IMG/VR virus record: IMGVR_UViG_3300020215_000095
Coordinates: 1-39,101 of that record
Length of the DNA: 39,101 nucleotides
Direction: 5' to 3' (one strand)
From: a virus
Part shown: positions 2,320 to 36,551 of the stretch, one piece after another
Layout: each line of letters begins with the position of its first letter
Position numbering within the stretch: the first letter of the stretch is position 1
The notes under the pieces: generated by a model
The model's input: the letters and a program-made list of their open reading frames with translations, nothing else
Told to the model about the DNA's origin: nothing
Database searches by the model: none
Program-made: the position numbers and the translations under genes

Positions 2320-2330
2320 TGGTAGGATGG
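2320..2330 (+). promoter_or_regulatory. Extended -10 promoter TGGTAGGATGG
   Basis: Identical over nine bases to the promoter-like element at 2104 (TGGTAGGAT). A transcript starting about 7 nt downstream would cover the structured segment 2340-2520. Confidence 0.45.
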
Positions 2331-2337
2331 CGGGAGG

Positions 2338-2520
2338 TGGAGGGTTGCTCTCCGCCCAAGGCTGACAGCCGCGTGGCGATACAAGATACGCGCGGCCTAC
2401 TTGGGCGGAGCTAACAGCCCTTCACGCAGGAGAGTAGATGGGGGCGCATAGCTCGTGGGAGCGGCTCTAGGCGTCCAGGACTAGAGACGGACGGGTTCGA
2501 CACCCGCAGTGCCCCGCCAT
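2338..2520 (+). ncRNA. Candidate structured RNA with tRNA-like 3' end
   Basis: The 5' part has a perfect 11-bp stem, CTCCGCCCAAG (2350-2360) with CTTGGGCGGAG (2400-2410), enclosing a smaller GC hairpin. The 3' part (2441-2519) resembles a tRNA: GGGGCGC (2441-2447) pairs with GTGCCCC (2509-2515, one G-U), and a T-arm has loop TTCGACA (2496-2502) closed by CGGG/CCCG. Discriminator G and an encoded CCA (2517-2519) follow. The expected anticodon arm is abnormal: CTCTAG (2465-2470) pairs with CTAGAG (2481-2486) around a 10-nt loop. A short frame of 10 codons with AGGAG upstream (ATG 2438) lies inside. It could be a divergent tRNA, a tmRNA-like RNA or a tRNA mimic. Confidence 0.4.
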
Positions 2521-2528
2521 CCGCCCTT

Positions 2529-2771
2529 CTACCCAAGCTCCCGATACACCGCCGTAACGAGCTCCACAGGGTCGGCATCGAGCGCCTTCACGTACTGATA
2601 GAGCTCAATCGCATCGAGCCGGCGCTCCCGGTTCTCCACCTTCGACACAAACTGCTGGGGCTTCCCCAGCCGCGCGGCCACTTCAGATTGCAGGAGGCCC
2701 CGCGCTTTTCGGAGTTCAATCAGACGCTCCACCAGGGACGCATAGGCGTCTGTGAACACCGAACCAGGCAT
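2529..2771 (-). CDS. XRE/Cro-CI family repressor
   Basis: This 80-residue protein is almost entirely a lambda-repressor-like helix-turn-helix domain. The recognition region reads LLQSEVAARLGKPQQFVSKVENRERRLD at about residues 26-53, the classical XRE pattern in which QQFVSKVE contacts the operator. No C-terminal peptidase or dimerisation domain is present, so it is unlikely to be cleaved by RecA. It faces the PEP-CTERM gene across a 90-nt region with GGGGT/ACCCC repeats. Beside integrase and excisionase it is the best candidate for the lysogeny repressor or an autoregulator. No Shine-Dalgarno sequence is clear before ATG, so a leaderless message as for lambda cI is possible. Confidence 0.9.
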   Translation of the reverse strand: MPGSVFTDAYASLVERLIELRKARGLLQSEVAARLGKPQQFVSKVENRERRLDAIELYQYVKALDADPVELVTAVYRELG

Positions 2772-2861: not shown

Positions 2862-3494
2862 ATGTTCAAGACGCTTCTCCTGGCGGCCGTCGCCAGCATC
2901 GCCACGAGCGCCCAGGCCGCAAACGTCATCGACCAGAACCAGCCCGACGGGAACGCCGGGCTTGCGGGCTTTAGCAACCTGAGCCACCCGCTTCAGTCTT
3001 TCCAGACGAACGCGGGCAATGTCTCCGGCGGCGGGTTCAGGGTGCACGGCGTCAGCGGCACCGACCCGCTTGAGCTTCAGATCGCGCTCTGGGACGCGCT
3101 CCCGAACGCCGTCGGAGCCAACCAGCTTGCGAGCGGCACGGTCGAAGTCGATCCGGTCGTCGAGCAGTGGGCCGACGTGTTCTGGACGCCGGTCACCGTC
3201 GCTACCATGACCACCTACTACCTCACTGTCGACATCGCCGGAGGCACCGTCGGGGGCGGCGTGGTGGGCGTGTTCCGGGGCAACCCGTATCCGAACGGAG
3301 AGCTCTTCCTGCGGGACGCGGGTAGCGGGGGCCAGTACCAGACCTACAGCTCTGACACGACCTTCCGCACCTACACATTCGTCGAGAACACCGGAGCGAT
3401 CCCCGAGCCCGCGACCTGGGCCTTGCTGATCGGCGGGTTCGGGCTTGCGGGAGGAATGCTCCGCCGGGTACGAAGCGTACCGGTGCGGAGTTAG
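2862..3494 (+). CDS. PEP-CTERM sorting-domain protein
   Basis: The 210-residue product starts with a Sec signal peptide (hydrophobic residues 4-15, cleavage after AQA near residue 19). A beta-rich Gly/Val/Thr ectodomain follows (about 20-175). It ends with a PEP-CTERM signal: PEPATW from 181, a hydrophobic glycine-rich helix, then RR. Proteins of this class are exported and processed at the C-terminus by exosortase/archaeosortase systems encoded by the host. The PEPATWA...GFG form is typical of sphingomonads. The gene has no obvious phage role, and its stop overlaps tRNA-Gly by 10 nt. It is either a lysogenic-conversion gene or host DNA picked up next to the integration site. Confidence 0.9.
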   Translation: MFKTLLLAAVASIATSAQAANVIDQNQPDGNAGLAGFSNLSHPLQSFQTNAGNVSGGGFRVHGVSGTDPLELQIALWDALPNAVGANQLASGTVEVDPVVEQWADVFWTPVTVATMTTYYLTVDIAGGTVGGGVVGVFRGNPYPNGELFLRDAGSGGQYQTYSSDTTFRTYTFVENTGAIPEPATWALLIGGFGLAGGMLRRVRSVPVRS

Positions 3495-3560
3495 CTCAGC
3501 TGGTAGAGCATCTGGTTCCCATCCAGAAGGTCGCGCGTTCGAGTCGCGTACTCCGCTCCA
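3485..3560 (+). tRNA. tRNA-Gly (anticodon CCC)
   Basis: A complete cloverleaf: acceptor GCGGAGT pairs with ACTCCGC, the D arm begins AGCTCAGCTGG, and anticodon stem TCTGG/CCAGA encloses loop TTCCCAT (anticodon CCC). The T arm contains GTTCGAGTC, and the discriminator T is followed by an encoded CCA at 3558-3560. Its 5' end overlaps the PEP-CTERM gene. With a tyrosine integrase 220 nt downstream, its 3' half is the likely attachment core. Confidence 0.96.
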
Positions 3561-3591: not shown

Positions 3592-3760
3592 ACGGGCTAA
3601 GTGGTTGAAACTGCAGGGTGGGCGCTCAGCTTCCCAAGCTAAAAATCGTTCTTCTCATAGCTCCTCATACGTTCTCCAAAGCATTGAGCGTATTGCGCTT
3701 TCCGCGATTTCCCCTAGCCATGCCGTATCATGTCTTCTGGCACCTGCACCTTGCATGTGT
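3592..3760. other. Non-coding attachment-region spacer
   Basis: Between the two repeat pairs lies about 170 nt that is more AT-rich than its surroundings. Open frames through it have no coding character. It is the expected place for host-factor (IHF-like) bending sites, but I see no specific motif. Confidence 0.3.
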
Positions 3761-3779
3761 GAGCCAGATTGGAGCCAGA
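3761..3779 (+). repeat. Direct repeat pair GAGCCAGA (putative integrase arm sites, right)
   Basis: Copies at 3761-3768 and 3772-3779 keep the 11-bp spacing of the left pair, 188 bp away. The second copy overlaps the integrase ribosome-binding site (GGAG 3771-3774), so protein binding here could also repress integrase expression. Confidence 0.55.
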
Positions 3780-3780
3780 T

Positions 3781-4857
3781 ATGCGGCTAACGGAAATCAG
3801 CATCCGGGCTCTCAAGGGCTCGGAAAAGTACCCCACCCACTTCTGCGACAGCACGCCGGGGTTCGGGGTGCGCTGTGGCTTGAAGAAGAAGACGTACGTG
3901 GTCGTGCGCGGCCGAAACCGCGAGCGCATCACGATCGGGACCGTCGGGCAGATCAGCCTCTCTGACGCGCGGAACGAAGCGAAGCGCCTCCTCCTCAACG
4001 AACCGGGGGAGAAGACTGCCACCGTTTCCTTCGACGAAGCCCGTACGCGCTTCCTAGAGGCTCTCGAAGCCTCGAAAAGCCCGAGATACCACTACCAGGT
4101 CAAACGGGCCTTAGAGCGGCATTTTAAGCCTCTGGAGGGCCGTCCTGTGGCTGACCTCAACCATGAGGACATCGAGCGGTGCCTCGCCAAGCTCAGCGAC
4201 CGTCCCTCCGAACAGCTCCACGCCTACCGCTACGCGCGGGCACTCTTCAACTGGGCGGCCAAAGCACCCCGCAAGTGGGTGAAGGTCTCCCCGATGTACG
4301 GGTACGATCCCCCGTCCCAGGATCGGAAGGGCTCGCGCGTCCTCAAGGATGAGGAGATCGTCCGCATCTGGTACGCGTCGCCCCCGATCTTCCGCCTCAT
4401 GATCCTGTGGGGCACGAGGAACACCGAGACGTGCGTTCTTGAGCGGGAGTGGATTGTGGACTCGGTTCTAACCATACCGGGTCGCTACACGAAAAATGGG
4501 CGGGACCACGCGATACCTGTGTGTCCCCTGGCAGAGACCATCCTTGCCGGACCATCCAACCAGTACGTCTTCCCCGGCAGGTGGGGCGGGCACATCCACC
4601 CCGGTGCTCTCGGAAAACTGAAGCGCGAGGTGTTACAAAAGAGTGCCACCAACCGCTGGCAGCTCCGCGACCTCCGCCGGACGTTCAGGAGCCTCGCCGC
4701 GCGGGTCGGGGTTCCGCGAGAGATCGCGGAAGTCCTCGTCAACCACGCCCCGCCGGTCCTCGACGAGATCTACGACCGGTACGACCGTATCCGCGAGAAA
4801 CGCGAGGCGCTTTTGAGGATCGAGCACGCTTTGGTATGGTTGCTCGCCCGGGTCTAA
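3781..4857 (+). CDS. int: Tyrosine-type site-specific integrase
   Basis: The 358-residue protein starts at ATG 3781, with GGAG 6 nt upstream (an in-frame TTG at 3769 is less likely). An N-terminal arm-binding domain (1-75, including PGFGVRCG) resembles the P4-type integrase N-terminus, and a core-binding SAM-like domain spans about 83-175. The catalytic domain shows Arg213 (GTRNTE), Lys238 (YTKNGR), R296-D-L-R299, His322 (VNHAP) and Tyr331 or Tyr334 (IYDRYD). The usual His of the HxxR box is Arg296. It catalyses attP x attB strand exchange, presumably at tRNA-Gly, and lies next to its excisionase. Confidence 0.95.
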   Translation: MRLTEISIRALKGSEKYPTHFCDSTPGFGVRCGLKKKTYVVVRGRNRERITIGTVGQISLSDARNEAKRLLLNEPGEKTATVSFDEARTRFLEALEASKSPRYHYQVKRALERHFKPLEGRPVADLNHEDIERCLAKLSDRPSEQLHAYRYARALFNWAAKAPRKWVKVSPMYGYDPPSQDRKGSRVLKDEEIVRIWYASPPIFRLMILWGTRNTETCVLEREWIVDSVLTIPGRYTKNGRDHAIPVCPLAETILAGPSNQYVFPGRWGGHIHPGALGKLKREVLQKSATNRWQLRDLRRTFRSLAARVGVPREIAEVLVNHAPPVLDEIYDRYDRIREKREALLRIEHALVWLLARV

Positions 4858-5149: not shown

Positions 5150-5225
5150 CCTGTCCACACGAGCCGTCCATACGGCCAGCTACACTGTATGTACCGCACC
5201 GTACGGCTATCCCACTGGTTCCGCA

Positions 5226-5364
5226 CCACTGTTCGTCGGGCTCACGCCACGACCCAATGCCCTCCAGCCGTCTACCGACCGTCTGGCCCCACGCGCGGTA
5301 TAGGACACGCGCGCGAGGGACGGGCATTGGGTCGTGGCGCTTCGCGCACACAGACGAACAGTGG
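5226..5364. repeat. Large interrupted inverted repeat with internal direct repeats
   Basis: Outer arms CCACTGTTCGTC (5226-5237) and GACGAACAGTGG (5353-5364) match over 12 bp. Inner arms at 5246-5262 and 5322-5338 match over 17 bp (GCCACGACCCAATGCCC and its complement). Asymmetric unpaired segments separate the two arm pairs. The 59-nt apex holds direct repeats CCGTCT (5268, 5279) and CACGCGCG (5290, 5306). No convincing gene lies in 5150-5481. It may be a cruciform-type replication or transfer origin, or a long structured RNA. It lies directly upstream of the relaxation/ATPase operon. Confidence 0.7.
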
Positions 5365-5397
5365 GCGGTCAGTACCCCTCTGGGGATGAACCGTTCA

Positions 5398-5410
5398 CGG
5401 TAAAATACCG
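5398..5410 (+). promoter_or_regulatory. Operon promoter with palindromic CGGTA-AAA-TACCG
   Basis: TAAAAT (5401-5406) fits the recurrent -10 pattern and sits inside a 13-bp dyad CGGTA/TACCG, so a repressor bound here would cover the -10. A start near 5413 leaves a leader of about 70 nt before ATG 5482. Confidence 0.5.
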
Positions 5411-5431
5411 ATAGACCCGTACCTTGTTTCA

Positions 5432-5481
5432 GGGCCGGCAGAAGCACCCTGCAAGGACGCGGGCTCTACTCCTCCCGGCCC
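5432..5481 (+). promoter_or_regulatory. Leader hairpin abutting the start codon
   Basis: GGGCCGG (5432-5438) pairs with CCGGCCC (5475-5481), ending one base before ATG 5482. Instead of a Shine-Dalgarno sequence the leader carries its complement-like CTCCTCC (5468-5474 region). A similar CTCCTCCCG occurs in the leader of the gene at 8721. Confidence 0.4.
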
Positions 5482-6219
5482 ATGAATGCCCTCGTTGTCG
5501 GCTCAAACCAGGAGCCGCTTTCACACTACCTTCCCCGCGCCAACTTCCTTCTGATCGACGACGAACTTCCCGATCGACTGCGCGCGCGGGCGTTTGACGT
5601 TGCCCGCCACACGTTCAATCCCCTTACCGGCCTCACCCCCAACCGGGCACGGGATCTGGCCGAACTGTTCTACGCCGCCGATCCCGGCGGCGACGCAACG
5701 CTTACCGTACGCAACGGGAAGCGGGCCCTCGCGCCCATGCTCGTGGCCGCCAAACGGATCGATCAGCTGACGGGCGATCGGAAGGACCCAGCCGCCGCCG
5801 AAGCCCTCGCCATGATCGACAACATCCTGTTCTCCCCCACGGTCCGCCGGGTCCTCACTGGTTCCAACTTCTCCCTGAAGGGCACCATCCTCGCCCGGTT
5901 GAACCGAGCCGAGCTCGGGGACTTCGACTGCTACGTCCTCGGAAACCTCCTCATCTCCCAGTACCAGGGCCAGGTGGTCATCCCCGACTTTGGCTTCTAC
6001 GCCGCGCCCTTCCACACCTCCCTCATCCGACAGAACCGGCTCATCGCCGGGATACGGTCCTTTGACGAGGTGCCGAAGTTCCGGAACCAGCTGATCCAGA
6101 TCGAGGAGAAAGTCGGGAGCCGCTGCACCCCGGAGGACGCGAAGCTCCTCGCCGTCTACGAAGGACTGGTACCGGGCACGAACGAGTACAACGACTTCAT
6201 CGGGCGGTGCATCGCTTGA
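5482..6219 (+). CDS. Putative ATPase-like partner protein (no Walker A)
   Basis: First gene of the ATPase/relaxation operon, 245 residues. Residues 22-50 (LLIDDELPDRLRARAFDV then HTFNPL) and 140-190 (ILARLNRAELGDFDCYVLG then a VVIPDFGFY strand) look like pieces of a RecA-type fold resembling VirD4/TraG-like ATPases. There is no GxxGxGK[ST] Walker A loop. I infer a catalytically dead ATPase paralogue or regulatory subunit. This is a judgement from local patterns, not an established family. No Shine-Dalgarno sequence precedes ATG, and a leader hairpin ends at the start codon. Two genes downstream lies the active ATPase. Confidence 0.75.
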   Translation: MNALVVGSNQEPLSHYLPRANFLLIDDELPDRLRARAFDVARHTFNPLTGLTPNRARDLAELFYAADPGGDATLTVRNGKRALAPMLVAAKRIDQLTGDRKDPAAAEALAMIDNILFSPTVRRVLTGSNFSLKGTILARLNRAELGDFDCYVLGNLLISQYQGQVVIPDFGFYAAPFHTSLIRQNRLIAGIRSFDEVPKFRNQLIQIEEKVGSRCTPEDAKLLAVYEGLVPGTNEYNDFIGRCIA

Positions 6220-6264: not shown

Positions 6265-6702
6265 ATGCAGCTCAAACTCAAGCGGTCACAACAGGGAAGG
6301 AAGTTCCTTCTCGAAGTCCGTGCGGAGTTCACACCCGAGGAACAGACGCGCGTCGCGGAAATCCCCTACTACGACATCCTCCACGTCGTGCGAGACGCGG
6401 GGGCTCGGGACGTCACCAAACGGTCGGGCCTATTCAAGGCTGCCGTCACGGGCTTCTTCCCGGAGCTCAAGAGCGACGCGATCTACATCTCGGCCAAATC
6501 CATCCAGCGCGGCCACGTCATCGAAGCCGACTACCTCGAAGCCATCACCGAGGTTGAGAGCAAAATCCGCAACGGCTGCAAGACCCTTCAGACGCACCTC
6601 GACGTGCGCGGATCCTTCACCGGCGAGGAGCAGGTCATCGACCTCGCCGAGGAAGGTCGGGTCGTGGCGCGCGCCGTTCCGCCGCCGGAGCGCGATGACT
6701 AG
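6265..6702 (+). CDS. Hypothetical operon protein
   Basis: A 145-residue soluble protein, starting at ATG 6265 with a G-rich ribosome-binding site. It has beta-strand-like basic residues 1-20, an acidic helical middle, and a proline/charged tail. No motif is recognised. Its stop overlaps the ATPase start by 8 nt (ATG 6695 inside the final codons), so the two are translationally coupled and probably made in a fixed ratio. By position it is a likely accessory or adaptor of the ATPase. Confidence 0.75.
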   Translation: MQLKLKRSQQGRKFLLEVRAEFTPEEQTRVAEIPYYDILHVVRDAGARDVTKRSGLFKAAVTGFFPELKSDAIYISAKSIQRGHVIEADYLEAITEVESKIRNGCKTLQTHLDVRGSFTGEEQVIDLAEEGRVVARAVPPPERDD

Positions 6703-8620
6703 CCATCAGGCCGAGATCGAGGACACCCGTCGGCTCTTCGCGTGGATACAGGAACAGGACAAGCAGCTCCTCGACGACCTCCCGCACGAGATCGGCATCC
6801 GCATCTTCGACGCGTTCCTCTCGCACGTCCCGCCGGGCATCAGCGGGCACTTCGGGACGGCGGTCGCCGCCGTGCTTGGGGAGGAGCGCTACCTGTGGCC
6901 GACCCCGCCGCCCGCCTTCGACCGCATGAGCCTCAAGGAGCTCACCGAGTACCGCCACCTCCTCTTTCAGAAGCGGCACTTCATCAAGAACGAGGAGGCG
7001 TACTACCGCCTCCTGTTTGATGGCGTGGGGCGCGCGTTTGGGGCGATTGCGAACGACCTCCCGTCGATCGAGCAGCCGTCGCCCTTCACGATCCCGCTTA
7101 TCTACACCGTCCCCGATCCGCGCAGGCTCGTCAGCGAAATCACCGCCACGATGACCGCGACGCGGTTCTATGACCGCGGCATGTTCAAAGACCTGGCTGA
7201 CCGACTTCTGGCAAATGCCCGGAAGGTCTCCGGCAGCACGCCGACGAACCGACGGCCCCTCAAACCCGCAACCGAGAGCGACCTTCCGCTTGACGAGCTC
7301 GTGAGCGGATACCTTGGGGGGACACCCTTCCACGACCTCCTCATGGCTCCGGTCCCGCTCAAACTCTCCCAGAAGGATCGGTTCAGCCACATGCACGTGG
7401 TCGGGGGCACGGGGGCGGGAAAGACCTCGCTCCTCGAACACCTCATCCTCTCCGACCTACGGAGCCCCGATCCGCCGTCCTTGGTCATCGTTGATCCGCA
7501 CGGCGACCTCATCAACCGGCTCACGCACGCGGACCTCGGCATCGAAGACCGGCTCATCGTCATCGACCCGAGGGACACGAAGCACCCGCCCGCCCTGAAT
7601 GTGTTTGCGATCAACCAGGAGCGCATGCGCGGGTATGACGAGGCCACGCGCGAGCAGGTGACGGCCGGGGTCATCCAGACCTTCGACTACCTCTTCACCG
7701 GGCTCGTGGGCGCAGACCTCACGGCCAAGCAGGGCGTGTTCTTCCGCTACGTCGCGCGGCTCATGCTCGCGCTCCCCGACGCCCTCGGCCGGAACGCCAC
7801 GATCCTCGACATGATCCAGCTCATGCGCGACCCCACGCCGTATGCCAAGGCCATCGAGCAGCTCCCGCCCTTGCAGCGGGAGTTCTTCGCGCACGACTTC
7901 GCCACGAAGACCTTCGCGCAGACGAAGGAACAGATCGCCTACCGGCTCCGCGCCATCATCGAGAACCCCACTTTGGCCCGGCTCTTCACCGCGCCAGAGA
8001 CGAAGGTCGACCTCTTCACCGAGCTTAACCGGGGATCGGTCATTCTTGTCGACACGGCGAAGGATTTCCTCAAGGACGGCAGCGGCAACTTCGGCCGCAT
8101 TTTCATCAGCCTCACGCTTCAGGCCGTCCTTGAACGGGCCGCCATTCCCGAAGCAAGGCGCAAGCCGACCTTCCTCATCGTGGACGAGGCGGCCACCTAT
8201 TTCGACAGCAACATCGACGATCTCTTGACCGACGCCCGCAAGTACCGCTGCGGGGTCGTGCTCAGTCACCAGTACCTTGACCAGGCCACCGGGAGCCTTC
8301 GAGCCTCGCTCCACGCCAACACGGGGATCAAGTTCGCCTCCGGTCTTTCGGCGAGCGACGCCCGTTCCATGGCCCCGGAGATGCGTACGACGGCCGACTT
8401 CATCCTCAATCAGCCGGGCCTTCAGTTCGCCGCGCACATCAAGAACGTCACGCCTCAGGCCGTTTCGATCCCCATCCGGCCTGGCGCGCTCGCGCGCGTC
8501 CCCACACTTTCCCCCGCTGCCTACGAACGGCTCGTCGAGCGCAACCGGACCAAGGTATCCCTCCCGTCCGTGCCTGTATCCCCAGCGACGCCCGACGAGG
8601 ATATAAGCCGCGAGTGGTAG
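6695..8620 (+). CDS. VirD4/TraG-like conjugative coupling ATPase
   Basis: The 641-residue protein is a DNA-translocating RecA/HerA-class ATPase. The N-terminal 220 residues are helical with no transmembrane helices. Walker A is GGTGAGKT at 237-244, a strand VIVDPHGD follows at 264-271, Walker B is FLIVDEA at 493-499 and the arginine/glutamine sensor SHQYLDQ at 524-530. This order is that of TraG/TraD/VirD4 coupling proteins, which pump relaxosome DNA in conjugation. Lack of membrane segments suggests a soluble, VirD4-like form as in integrative elements. ATG 6695 (CGGAG 5 nt upstream) is chosen; upstream frame extension only overlaps the preceding gene. Such an ATPase is unexpected in a tailed phage. 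Confidence 0.9.
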   Translation: MTSHQAEIEDTRRLFAWIQEQDKQLLDDLPHEIGIRIFDAFLSHVPPGISGHFGTAVAAVLGEERYLWPTPPPAFDRMSLKELTEYRHLLFQKRHFIKNEEAYYRLLFDGVGRAFGAIANDLPSIEQPSPFTIPLIYTVPDPRRLVSEITATMTATRFYDRGMFKDLADRLLANARKVSGSTPTNRRPLKPATESDLPLDELVSGYLGGTPFHDLLMAPVPLKLSQKDRFSHMHVVGGTGAGKTSLLEHLILSDLRSPDPPSLVIVDPHGDLINRLTHADLGIEDRLIVIDPRDTKHPPALNVFAINQERMRGYDEATREQVTAGVIQTFDYLFTGLVGADLTAKQGVFFRYVARLMLALPDALGRNATILDMIQLMRDPTPYAKAIEQLPPLQREFFAHDFATKTFAQTKEQIAYRLRAIIENPTLARLFTAPETKVDLFTELNRGSVILVDTAKDFLKDGSGNFGRIFISLTLQAVLERAAIPEARRKPTFLIVDEAATYFDSNIDDLLTDARKYRCGVVLSHQYLDQATGSLRASLHANTGIKFASGLSASDARSMAPEMRTTADFILNQPGLQFAAHIKNVTPQAVSIPIRPGALARVPTLSPAAYERLVERNRTKVSLPSVPVSPATPDEDISREW

Positions 8621-8720: not shown

Positions 8721-9671
8721 ATGATTACTCTTCCAGCCTACGACAACGACGACCCTCCTCGTCGCCTTCGCTTCGCGCCTCCAAACCCTAAGCAGAAGCG
8801 GCTTGTCTTGCAGGAAGCCGACTTCTGCATGTTCGAGGCGATCGACCGGCACGGGCCGCTGCCTACTCCCTACCTCTACGAATTCGCCCGCACCTTCCGC
8901 CCGAGCTACCTCAAGACGCAAAAGCGCCTCACGGAGCTCTACAACGGCGACCAGGTGGGCTCGTATCTTACTCGTCCCCCACGCCAGTTCGAGGCGTTTG
9001 AGGCCCGCTACCAGCACATCGTCTACGACCTCACGGACCGGGCCAAACTCGCCTTAGAAGATCGACTCGGCCGCTTCTCGCCGCGCCGGACCGATCCGTT
9101 CTTGCATCAGCTCATGGGGGCCTGCGTCGCGTCCTCGATCGAACTGGCGTGCCGAGAGAAGGGCCTGCGCTATATCCCCCGCGAGGAGATCCTCACGCAC
9201 CCGAAGGTGGGGCAGGCCAAAGACGCTACGAACCCGATGGCGCTTCCGGTGGGGAGTAGCAAGCTAGTCCCAGACGACCTCTTCGGCATCGAGTATCCGG
9301 GGGAGGGGTTTCGCTTCTTCGCCGTTGAGATTGATAGAAATACCGAGAGCATCGAGCGCAGAAACCTCGAACAAACAGCGTTCGGAAGGAAGGTCGGGAA
9401 CTACCTCGAAGTCTTGGGGGCACGAACCTTTCAGGCATGGTGGGGCATCCCGAACCTGTCGATCCTCATTGTCACCACAAACGCCACCCACGGCAGGAAC
9501 ATTCTCGACTACATCAGGAAGCAGCGGAACGAGAAGTACGAGGGCCGGTTCGCGCTCTCCGTCGTGCCTTCCTTCGGCGTGAACTGGCGCGTACCGAAGA
9601 CCGTGCTCACGCACCTCCTTGCGGAGCCGTGGGCCACCGTCACCGGCACCAAGGACATCGGCAGGCCATAA
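8721..9671 (+). CDS. Replication-relaxation family protein
   Basis: The 316-residue product matches the layout of the replication-relaxation family of conjugative elements and plasmids. A winged-helix region (about 30-115, FCMFEAIDRHGPLPTPYLYEF pattern split over two helices) is followed by an alpha/beta domain. That domain contains VPDDLFGI (183-190) and FFAVEIDRNTES (199-210). The D...E-I-D arrangement with Lys224 downstream resembles a PD-(D/E)xK nuclease site, an inference of mine. Family members are linked to plasmid DNA relaxation and often sit next to TraG-type ATPases, as here. The start has no Shine-Dalgarno sequence; ATG 8717 is out of frame. Confidence 0.85.
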   Translation: MITLPAYDNDDPPRRLRFAPPNPKQKRLVLQEADFCMFEAIDRHGPLPTPYLYEFARTFRPSYLKTQKRLTELYNGDQVGSYLTRPPRQFEAFEARYQHIVYDLTDRAKLALEDRLGRFSPRRTDPFLHQLMGACVASSIELACREKGLRYIPREEILTHPKVGQAKDATNPMALPVGSSKLVPDDLFGIEYPGEGFRFFAVEIDRNTESIERRNLEQTAFGRKVGNYLEVLGARTFQAWWGIPNLSILIVTTNATHGRNILDYIRKQRNEKYEGRFALSVVPSFGVNWRVPKTVLTHLLAEPWATVTGTKDIGRP

Positions 9672-15345: not shown

Positions 15346-15545
15346 ACAAGCAGCAGCTTCGAGACTGGATCGACGAAGGCATGACCCGCGTCGCGGTCTT
15401 TATGTACCAGACCTACGGCATCCCGCTTGATGCGTTCAACGACGAGCTCTCAGGCCGCACGCGCGGCGAGCAGATGGCCTTCCTATCGAGCTTTGCAAAG
15501 GACTACCCGAGCGTCTTTGAAGGGATGCCGCGCTATGTGCCGTGA
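15342..15545 (+). CDS. Hypothetical protein between terminase genes
   Basis: A 67-residue helical protein beginning MNKQQLRDWIDEGMTRVAVFMY. It is linked by 4-nt overlaps to the gene before it (ATGA) and to the large terminase after it (GTGA). It has no cysteines or membrane helix. Its tight coupling suggests a role in packaging, for instance as part of the small subunit, but no family is recognised. Confidence 0.7.
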   Translation: MNKQQLRDWIDEGMTRVAVFMYQTYGIPLDAFNDELSGRTRGEQMAFLSSFAKDYPSVFEGMPRYVP

Positions 15546-16819
15546 GCTTCGTAAACTTCGAGATACACGAGAGCCACGCGCCCCTCTGGGAACGCTCTGA
15601 CTGGCGCTACGCAATCATCATGGGCGGCCGCGGCAACGGCCGCTCAGGCACCGCATCCCGCTTCGTCATCAGTCAGCTTCTCGGGAAGGAATACACCCGC
15701 GGCGCGATCATGCGCGCGGTCCATTCGGACATCCGCGCGTCGTGCTGGTCTGAGCTTCTCGACCGCCTGAACGAGCAAGGGATCACCGAGACCTTCAAGG
15801 CCAACGACGGGGACATGTACCTTGAGCGGGGTGCGAACTCCGTTCGGGCCCATGGTTTCAAGTCCTCATCAGGGGCGCTCACCGCCCGCCTCAAATCCCT
15901 CGCCGGCTACAACCTTCTCTGGATCGAAGAGGCCGAGGAGGTGGGCGAAGAGGACTTTATGAAGCTCGACGAGAGCTTGCGCACCGTGAAGGGGCGCATC
16001 CGCATCGTCCTCACGCTCAACACGCCCGTCAAAGGCCACTGGATACTCAACAAGTGGTTCGAGCTTGACCCGCATCCCGAGGCTCCCGGCTTTTACATCC
16101 CCCGGCTCCGCGCGGACGCCACCGACACCATCTTCATCGGCGGGACGTACCGCGAGAACCTCCCCAACCTCGACCCGCACACCGTCGAGATTTACGAGCG
16201 GCAGAAGCACACCAATCCCTCTCGCTACTGGCAGGTGATCGAGGGGCTCGCGCCCGACCAGGTGCGCGGCAAAATCTACACCGGCTGGCAGCTCATAGAT
16301 CAGATCCCGCCCGAGGCCCGCCTTGTACGGTTTGGCGAGGACTTCGGGTGGTTCCCCGACCCGGCCTGTGCCGTTGCGGTATACTACTGGAATGGAAGCT
16401 ACATCATCGACGAGCTGGCCTACGGCACCGAGCTTACAAATGAGCACTTGGCTAAGTGCATCAGGGAAGCCGGTACGGCCATCACCATCGCGGACAGCGC
16501 CGAGCCCAAATCGATCGCGGAGCAACGAAAGTACGGGATCAGCGTGAACCCCTGCGAGAAGGGGAAGGACAGCGTTCGTTTCGGGATACAGATCGTCAAT
16601 CAGAAGAAGATTTACGTAACAAGACGATCAAAGAACGTCTGGGAGAGCTACGAAAACTACGCGTGGGATGAGGACAAGGACGGGAACTCCAAGAATGAAC
16701 CCGCGCACAAGTACTCACACGCGATGGACGCGGTGAGGTACGCTATCACCAGCCTTCATGGGAAGCCGACGGCCGCTGTCCCCAGTGGTCCCCGTCATAG
16801 GGTCAATGTGGCGGTATAG
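15542..16819 (+). CDS. terL: Terminase large subunit (PBSX/Terminase_3 type)
   Basis: The 425-residue DNA-packaging motor starts at GTG 15542. The ATPase domain shows Walker A-like GGRGNGRS at 28-35, Walker B LLWIEE at 125-130 and the coupling motif LTLNTP at 158-163. The C-terminal RNase H-type nuclease contains Asp267 (GEDFGW), Asp318 (ADSAEP) and Asp396 (HAMDAV). The conserved Walker A lysine is Arg34; relatives with GRGxGRS are known to me, so this does not imply inactivity. It translocates DNA into proheads and cuts concatemers. It is coupled to the small upstream genes by a 4-nt overlap. Confidence 0.95.
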   Translation: MSFVNFEIHESHAPLWERSDWRYAIIMGGRGNGRSGTASRFVISQLLGKEYTRGAIMRAVHSDIRASCWSELLDRLNEQGITETFKANDGDMYLERGANSVRAHGFKSSSGALTARLKSLAGYNLLWIEEAEEVGEEDFMKLDESLRTVKGRIRIVLTLNTPVKGHWILNKWFELDPHPEAPGFYIPRLRADATDTIFIGGTYRENLPNLDPHTVEIYERQKHTNPSRYWQVIEGLAPDQVRGKIYTGWQLIDQIPPEARLVRFGEDFGWFPDPACAVAVYYWNGSYIIDELAYGTELTNEHLAKCIREAGTAITIADSAEPKSIAEQRKYGISVNPCEKGKDSVRFGIQIVNQKKIYVTRRSKNVWESYENYAWDEDKDGNSKNEPAHKYSHAMDAVRYAITSLHGKPTAAVPSGPRHRVNVAV

Positions 16820-36014: not shown

Positions 36015-36551
36015 ATGCACAACGTGCCTCATAGTGAGGCTACAAAACAACGCCTCCGCGAGATAGAAAACGCCAAAGTCGCGGCCGACCCTACGGGTTA
36101 CAGCGAACGCATGGCCTCCTACCGTCGTGGCAAGAAGATGCCGCAAGAGGCGATTGAACGTATCCGCGCCTTTCAGAAAAAGAAGGTCTTTTCGCCGGAA
36201 ACCCGTCGCAAAATCAGTGAAGCCAAACGTGGCCCCAAACACCACGCGTGGAAGGGAGGTATCACCGCCACCAATCACTCTGAGCGCCGTGTCTTCATGA
36301 ACAGCCGAGAGTACAAGGAATGGCGTCGTCACGTTTTCCAGCGCGACGACTACACCTGCCAGGGATGCGGAAAGCGTGGCGTCAAATTACAGGCAGATCA
36401 TGAGCTTCCCTACGTAGACTATCCCGACCTTCGCGTAGAAATCCTCAATGGCAGGGCCATGTGCGTGGACTGCCACAAGAAGACGCCAACCTATGGCTTC
36501 AACCAGTATCGGCTATCCCCATCGTCCCCCATGTGGAAGCTCAAGAGCTAG
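36015..36551 (+). CDS. Free-standing HNH homing endonuclease
   Basis: The 178-residue product has a helical DNA-binding N-terminus including a NUMOD3-like segment (FSPETRRKISEAKRG, about 59-73) and a C-terminal HNH domain: zinc pairs C115/C118 and C150/C153 with Asp128-His129-Glu130 as the catalytic start and His154 at the end. Such genes insert between phage genes and spread by cutting lacking alleles. It separates the endolysin from the holin-like gene. Its own -10 ends 6 nt before ATG, so it is expressed independently. Confidence 0.9.
   Translation: MHNVPHSEATKQRLREIENAKVAADPTGYSERMASYRRGKKMPQEAIERIRAFQKKKVFSPETRRKISEAKRGPKHHAWKGGITATNHSERRVFMNSREYKEWRRHVFQRDDYTCQGCGKRGVKLQADHELPYVDYPDLRVEILNGRAMCVDCHKKTPTYGFNQYRLSPSSPMWKLKS

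Follow-up and report, generated by a model that had tools for sequence, protein, structure and literature searches.

A candidate structured RNA with a marginally tRNA-like 3′ segment beside the HTH regulator gene of a temperate phage

Comparison with described RNAs

The small OOP RNA of phage λ faces, and is complementary to, the end of the regulator gene cII, and the bacterial Y RNA YrlA joins a long stem to a tRNA-like module. RNase P and the CCA enzymes use the acceptor stem, the T-loop and the GCCA end of tRNAs. According to references given in PMC5869508, OOP lowers cII expression via RNase III. The human RNAs mascRNA and menRNA are cut by RNase P from MALAT1 and MENβ; they keep an acceptor stem and T-arm, and have a small D-arm with two guanosines and a longer equivalent of the anticodon arm (PMC11693755).

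The phage locus described here has features of several of these systems, and our preferred reading, to which we give a probability of about 0.4, is that it holds a plus-strand structured noncoding RNA with a rod-shaped core, probably regulatory, to which a tRNA-like 3′ part has been added in one lineage. The locus is convergent with a regulator gene, as λ OOP is, and its basal stem overlaps the regulator stop codon; it differs from OOP in that no terminator was found and its transcription is putative, and no relation to OOP by sequence or family was seen. Its 3′ segment resembles mascRNA and menRNA in its kept acceptor stem and T-arm, in a D-arm that is reduced and has two guanosines, in an equivalent of the anticodon arm that is longer than usual, and in its place 3′ of a candidate structured noncoding RNA; in the two human RNAs, however, the CCA is added by an enzyme, whereas the phage CCA is encoded in the DNA and its processing is putative. 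This likeness is an analogy rather than membership, and implies no common descent. YrlA differs in the order of its modules, and a Y RNA reading was rejected because no Ro60/TROVE domain was found in the 20 window proteins, from the larger ORFs, that were scanned with Pfam.

The phage and its gene neighborhood

The window, by which we mean the whole stretch of DNA analyzed, is the 39,101-bp record IMGVR_UViG_3300020215_000095, whose gene content is that of a temperate phage, with genes for an integrase (3769–4857), a terminase (15542–16819), an RNA ligase (60–620), a NinG-type endonuclease (1375–1875) and a PEP-CTERM protein (2862–3494). It has no close relative among described phages: in 50,697 phage records the terminase finds nothing better than a match of 50% identity. 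With the terminase as anchor, the genome contigs gave a match in one metagenome-assembled genome, and the small ORF at 2120–2305, used in the same way, gave no relatives. The gene that faces the putative RNA (2529–2771, minus strand) encodes a small HTH regulator of 80 amino acids that belongs to PHROGs HTH/repressor families, and a scan of viral contigs with this protein found L071, a 44,360-bp phage (98% identity), and L072 (66%). The record behind L072 (1–124) and L078 (1–124) has two HTH copies and identical bases at both ends, and so seems to be complete.

An intact tRNA-Gly(CCC) gene (3485–3560) adjoins the integrase gene and is followed by CTTCCCAAGCTAAAAA at 3630–3645. This sequence is similar to a piece of a tRNA-Gly anticodon arm that precedes the integrase of L071; possibly, the phage uses a tRNA-Gly gene as its integration site and brings a copy to replace it. 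A TrwB/HerA-like ATPase (6320–8620) and a replication-relaxation (Replic_Relax) protein (8721–9671), both plasmid-like, are encoded beside the terminase and capsid genes.

The RNA ligase gene had led to the suggestion of a role in translation defense. The ligase is real, but its gene lies 1.7 kb away, and this idea found no support: the stretches of L071 that were read contain no RNA ligase, and among relatives of the ligase we detected no similar RNA, with nothing alike downstream of the gene in nine of them except a predicted tRNA in L014.

The rod hairpin

The rod (2337–2425, plus strand) is built of three stems, 2337–2347/2415–2425, 2350–2360/2400–2410 and 2368–2375/2389–2396, with 11 + 11 + 8 = 30 bp in all, and the second of these is the perfect 11-bp stem of the preliminary description. 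Its predicted fold has an energy of −55.3 kcal/mol (z −5.25), which none of 200 shuffles equaled, and the whole region folds with z between −3.2 and −3.8. In a 110-nt fold scan of the whole record the place of the rod scores about −3.5 to −3.7, among the best ~30 of ~1,950 windows; many other places in the phage fold equally well, so the rod is strong but not unique. On the minus strand it is 8.4 kcal/mol weaker (−46.9 vs −55.3 kcal/mol), as is expected if G-U pairs matter, and a different rod at the same place in L071 (see below) likewise folds better on the plus strand (−60.7 vs −51.4).

In both phages the hairpin follows immediately on the stop codon of the HTH gene, and it could instead belong to the minus strand, as a transcript end or stabilizer of the HTH message with the stop codon touching the basal stem. 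The weaker minus-strand folds of both phages argue against this, and a terminator search near the element gave no call and no T-run, so we regard a minus-strand element as improbable.

Upstream of the rod, the extended −10 reported earlier is present as the plus-strand box TGGTAGGAT at 2320–2328, and L071 has TGCTAAACT at the equivalent place, directly before its own rod. A two-hexamer promoter scan, which found no −35/−10 pair near the element, lends this box no support as a promoter.

An apparently exchangeable rod on a shared basal stem

The DNA of L071 is 90.5% identical to the window from 2523 to 2889, and the identity ends at 2523. To the left of this point L071 has ~220 bases as against ~500 in the window, and it has neither the small ORF nor the tRNA-like segment; at the same position beside the regulator it has a rod of different sequence, with a basal stem GGGUGGAGAGUUC/GAGCUCUUCUAUCC followed by GAGCAGGG/CCCUGCUC, GUCUCUCU/AGAGAGAC and GCCACCG/CGGUGG. 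The equivalent basal stem of the window is GGUGGAGGGU with GCCCUUCUACC. Between the two phages, C for U in the 3′ strand is matched by G for A in the 5′ strand, a single compensatory double change, and each phage's 5′ strand pairs better with its native 3′ strand than with that of the other phage. The covariation that had been called for as a check comes to this one double change in the basal stem, seen in one relative that lacks the tRNA-like part. Only 0.3% of shuffled 5′ strands beat the energy of the local basal stem (2417–2423 side), and the distal stem of the window, taken alone, is no better than shuffles (19%). The 5′ strand is also the best stringent local match between the two intervals, a match that is not significant alone, being reached by 140 of 1000 shuffles.

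Two plus-strand copies of GCCCTTC take part in this stem. The first (2417–2423) lies on the 3′ side of the basal stem when this closes locally, and the second belongs to the distal partner GCCCTTCTACC (2523–2533), which overlaps the HTH stop codon and is the equivalent of CTCTTCTATCC in L071; the rod can thus close locally (2415–2425) or on the far copy (2523–2533). The tRNA-like segment lies between the two copies. Such flanks would be left if the segment had been inserted and a few target bases duplicated, or by a deletion in L071, and a 7-base repeat could possibly also arise by chance.

Since the rod of L071 differs and the tRNA-like part is absent there, the rod is the recurring element, and the segment is an insertion, a duplication or a sequence lost from L071; we found no sequence similarity between rod and segment of the kind that a tandem duplication would give. 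Position and basal stem are kept while the rod differs, and the arrangement thus has the appearance of an RNA cassette that can be exchanged next to a regulator gene that is conserved. The rod in L071 makes the hairpin look real and leaves the tRNA resemblance unproven. The strong fold, the plus-strand preference and this positional equivalent with its matching basal stem together support the structured RNA predicted in the preliminary description.

The tRNA-like segment

The 79-nt segment at 2441–2519 (plus strand) can be folded into a 7-bp acceptor stem with one G-U pair (2441–2447/2509–2515), a T-stem of 4 bp plus an A-C mismatch (2492–2495/2503–2506) with the T-loop TTCGACA (UUCGACA in RNA), and an encoded GCCA end formed by G2516 and the CCA at 2517–2519. 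All the parts listed for it earlier are present, including the nonstandard anticodon-like arm of 6 bp with a 10-nt loop, and the D-loop has 4 nt. The segment accordingly has the acceptor stem, the TTCRA-loop T-arm and the CCA of a tRNA, and lacks a 7-nt anticodon loop and a normal D-loop.

A ribosome-binding site and a short frame had been placed at the junction with the rod, and both are indeed there, AGGAG at 2428–2432 and a 10-codon plus-strand frame (ATG…TAG) at 2438–2470. The frame consists of acceptor, D-arm and anticodon-arm bases of the segment and is probably incidental. Together with the hairpin and the CCA end it could be taken for the tag frame of a tmRNA-like RNA, and a CCA-ended tRNA-like part with a short frame is what the locus shares with bacterial tmRNA. 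Its size and layout are wrong for a tmRNA, however, with the frame inside the tRNA-like domain, and neither ARAGORN in tmRNA mode, even at half threshold, nor the Rfam tmRNA models (up to E 10) gave a match; we consider a tmRNA barely credible.

As a tRNA the segment scores poorly. At default settings ARAGORN calls the tRNA-Gly at 3485–3560 alone and misses 2441–2519, and at 96% of its cut-off it calls exactly 2441–2519, together with a site at 36140–36211, but also makes a call in 48 of 300 shuffled windows (16%). With the Rfam tRNA model RF00005 the segment is not among the matches up to E 10. A model built from ten phage tRNAs gives it 12.3 bits (E 0.18), the second best match in the window after tRNA-Gly (66.9 bits), in an alignment that displaces the CCA, and folded alone the segment is little better than shuffles (z −1.2). 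A descriptor drawn up with knowledge of the element, which asks for a 7-bp acceptor, a TTCRA T-arm and an encoded CCA, was matched in 3 of 200 shuffled windows, and in none of 200 once a 4-bp D stem was added; it had no match in ~0.5 Mb of other phage loci and found, besides 2441–2519, only the true tRNA-Gly of the window. We take the resemblance to be suggestive, only marginally beyond chance and not established. The tRNA mimic or degenerate tRNA proposed earlier is possible and unproven: the segment has the acceptor, T-arm and CCA, and falls below the ARAGORN and Rfam cut-offs.

The shuffled calls of equal quality, the weak fold of the segment and the many structured places in the window are what would be seen if the resemblance had arisen by chance in GC-rich, hairpin-rich DNA, with rod and segment as mere intergenic hairpins. 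The rarity in shuffles of acceptor, T-loop, D-stem and CCA in combination, and the rank of the segment with the tRNA model, make this explanation somewhat unlikely. We think it unlikely, too, that a tRNA gene or a fragment of one became trapped here and decayed into the segment, losing its D-loop and anticodon arm. Acceptor pairing should be the first to go in such a copy, yet all 7 pairs are intact, the tRNA-model score is low and no similar tRNA sequence was found. Decay would, on the other hand, fit the canonical T-loop and CCA, the GCCCTTC repeats around a segment that L071 lacks, and the presence of tRNA sequence in this phage group: an intact tRNA-Gly in the same phage, and a weak match to tRNA in each of two related phages, in one case directly before the L071 integrase.

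Searches for homologues of both parts found none beyond the positional equivalent in L071. An exact-match pattern scan of genome contigs gave no copy of the tRNA-like segment, BLAST searches of phage and plasmid sequences with the region gave nothing significant and no tRNA sequence like the segment, a model of the segment had no match in 50 phage records (a run made without a positive control), and the L071 rod had no match in 27 records and the phage collection. An exact 20-mer of the T-arm occurs once among viral contigs, in L002; this stretch seems to be protein-coding, and we take the match as chance. A tRNA-Sec-like reading, prompted by the short D-loop and a possible 8-bp acceptor, was rejected, as it has two junction mismatches, lacks both a long variable arm and a UCA anticodon, and has no Rfam match.

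A possible role

Our preferred reading, a structured regulatory RNA with a lineage-specific 3′ addition, builds on the observed folds, positions and comparison with L071. The putative RNA would lie tail to tail with the HTH gene, its far basal-stem partner overlapping the regulator stop codon, so that a plus-strand transcript reaching this far side would complement the end of the regulator message. From this position we infer that it most likely acts on that message, as λ OOP does on cII. With other genes of the phage, antisense pairing is no better than chance, the longest run (18, G-U allowed) being within the range of shuffles (15–22).

The tRNA-like 3′ domain could serve as a signal for processing, or it could be the relic of a tRNA or a product of chance. 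It keeps the half of a tRNA that is read by end-processing enzymes, without a usable ribosome-reading half. If it works, its likeliest use would be in processing or end protection, for example as a site where RNase P cuts to form the rod RNA's 3′ end. Pairings that can bury the CCA speak against processing: GGATGGC (2325–2331) pairs with GCCATCC (2516–2522), and GATGG with CCATC. A fuller form of the idea, by analogy a prophage parallel of MALAT1/mascRNA, in which a noncoding RNA with exchangeable rods, beside a conserved regulator gene, carries a mimic reduced to the enzyme-read half of a tRNA and owes its 3′ end to a tRNA-processing enzyme acting there, seems to us quite unlikely.

A rod that is indeed an RNA would mean that this phage group has an exchangeable RNA which belongs to no Rfam family and lies next to a conserved regulator gene. 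A functional tRNA-like part would show, as a test set up by nature, what features of a tRNA are enough to recruit bacterial processing enzymes; as a relic or a chance product, it calls for caution with by-eye cloverleaves in GC-rich phage DNA.

Other candidate structured sites

In L014, ARAGORN predicts a tRNA with anticodon UUA, which reads the stop codon UAA, at 5986–6059, downstream of a relative of the RNA ligase gene and after a TGGTAGAATG box. Downstream of the integrase gene of the window, at 5190–5400, lies a very strong hairpin with arms CACGACCC…GGGTCGTGGC (z −7.8 on the plus and −9.7 on the minus strand in the 110-nt scan), and L003 (~2430–2600) and L018 (~6880–7060) have similar long hairpins, likewise downstream of the integrase region; this is possibly a replication or recombination site. 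Directly before the gene at 5482–6219 the window has a leader, CCTTGTTTCAGGGCCGGC…GCACCCTGCAAGG (5413–5486), which is kept in four phages (L003 at 3807, L018 at 7102 and L079 at 15956–16019, besides the window) and looks like a conserved mRNA leader.
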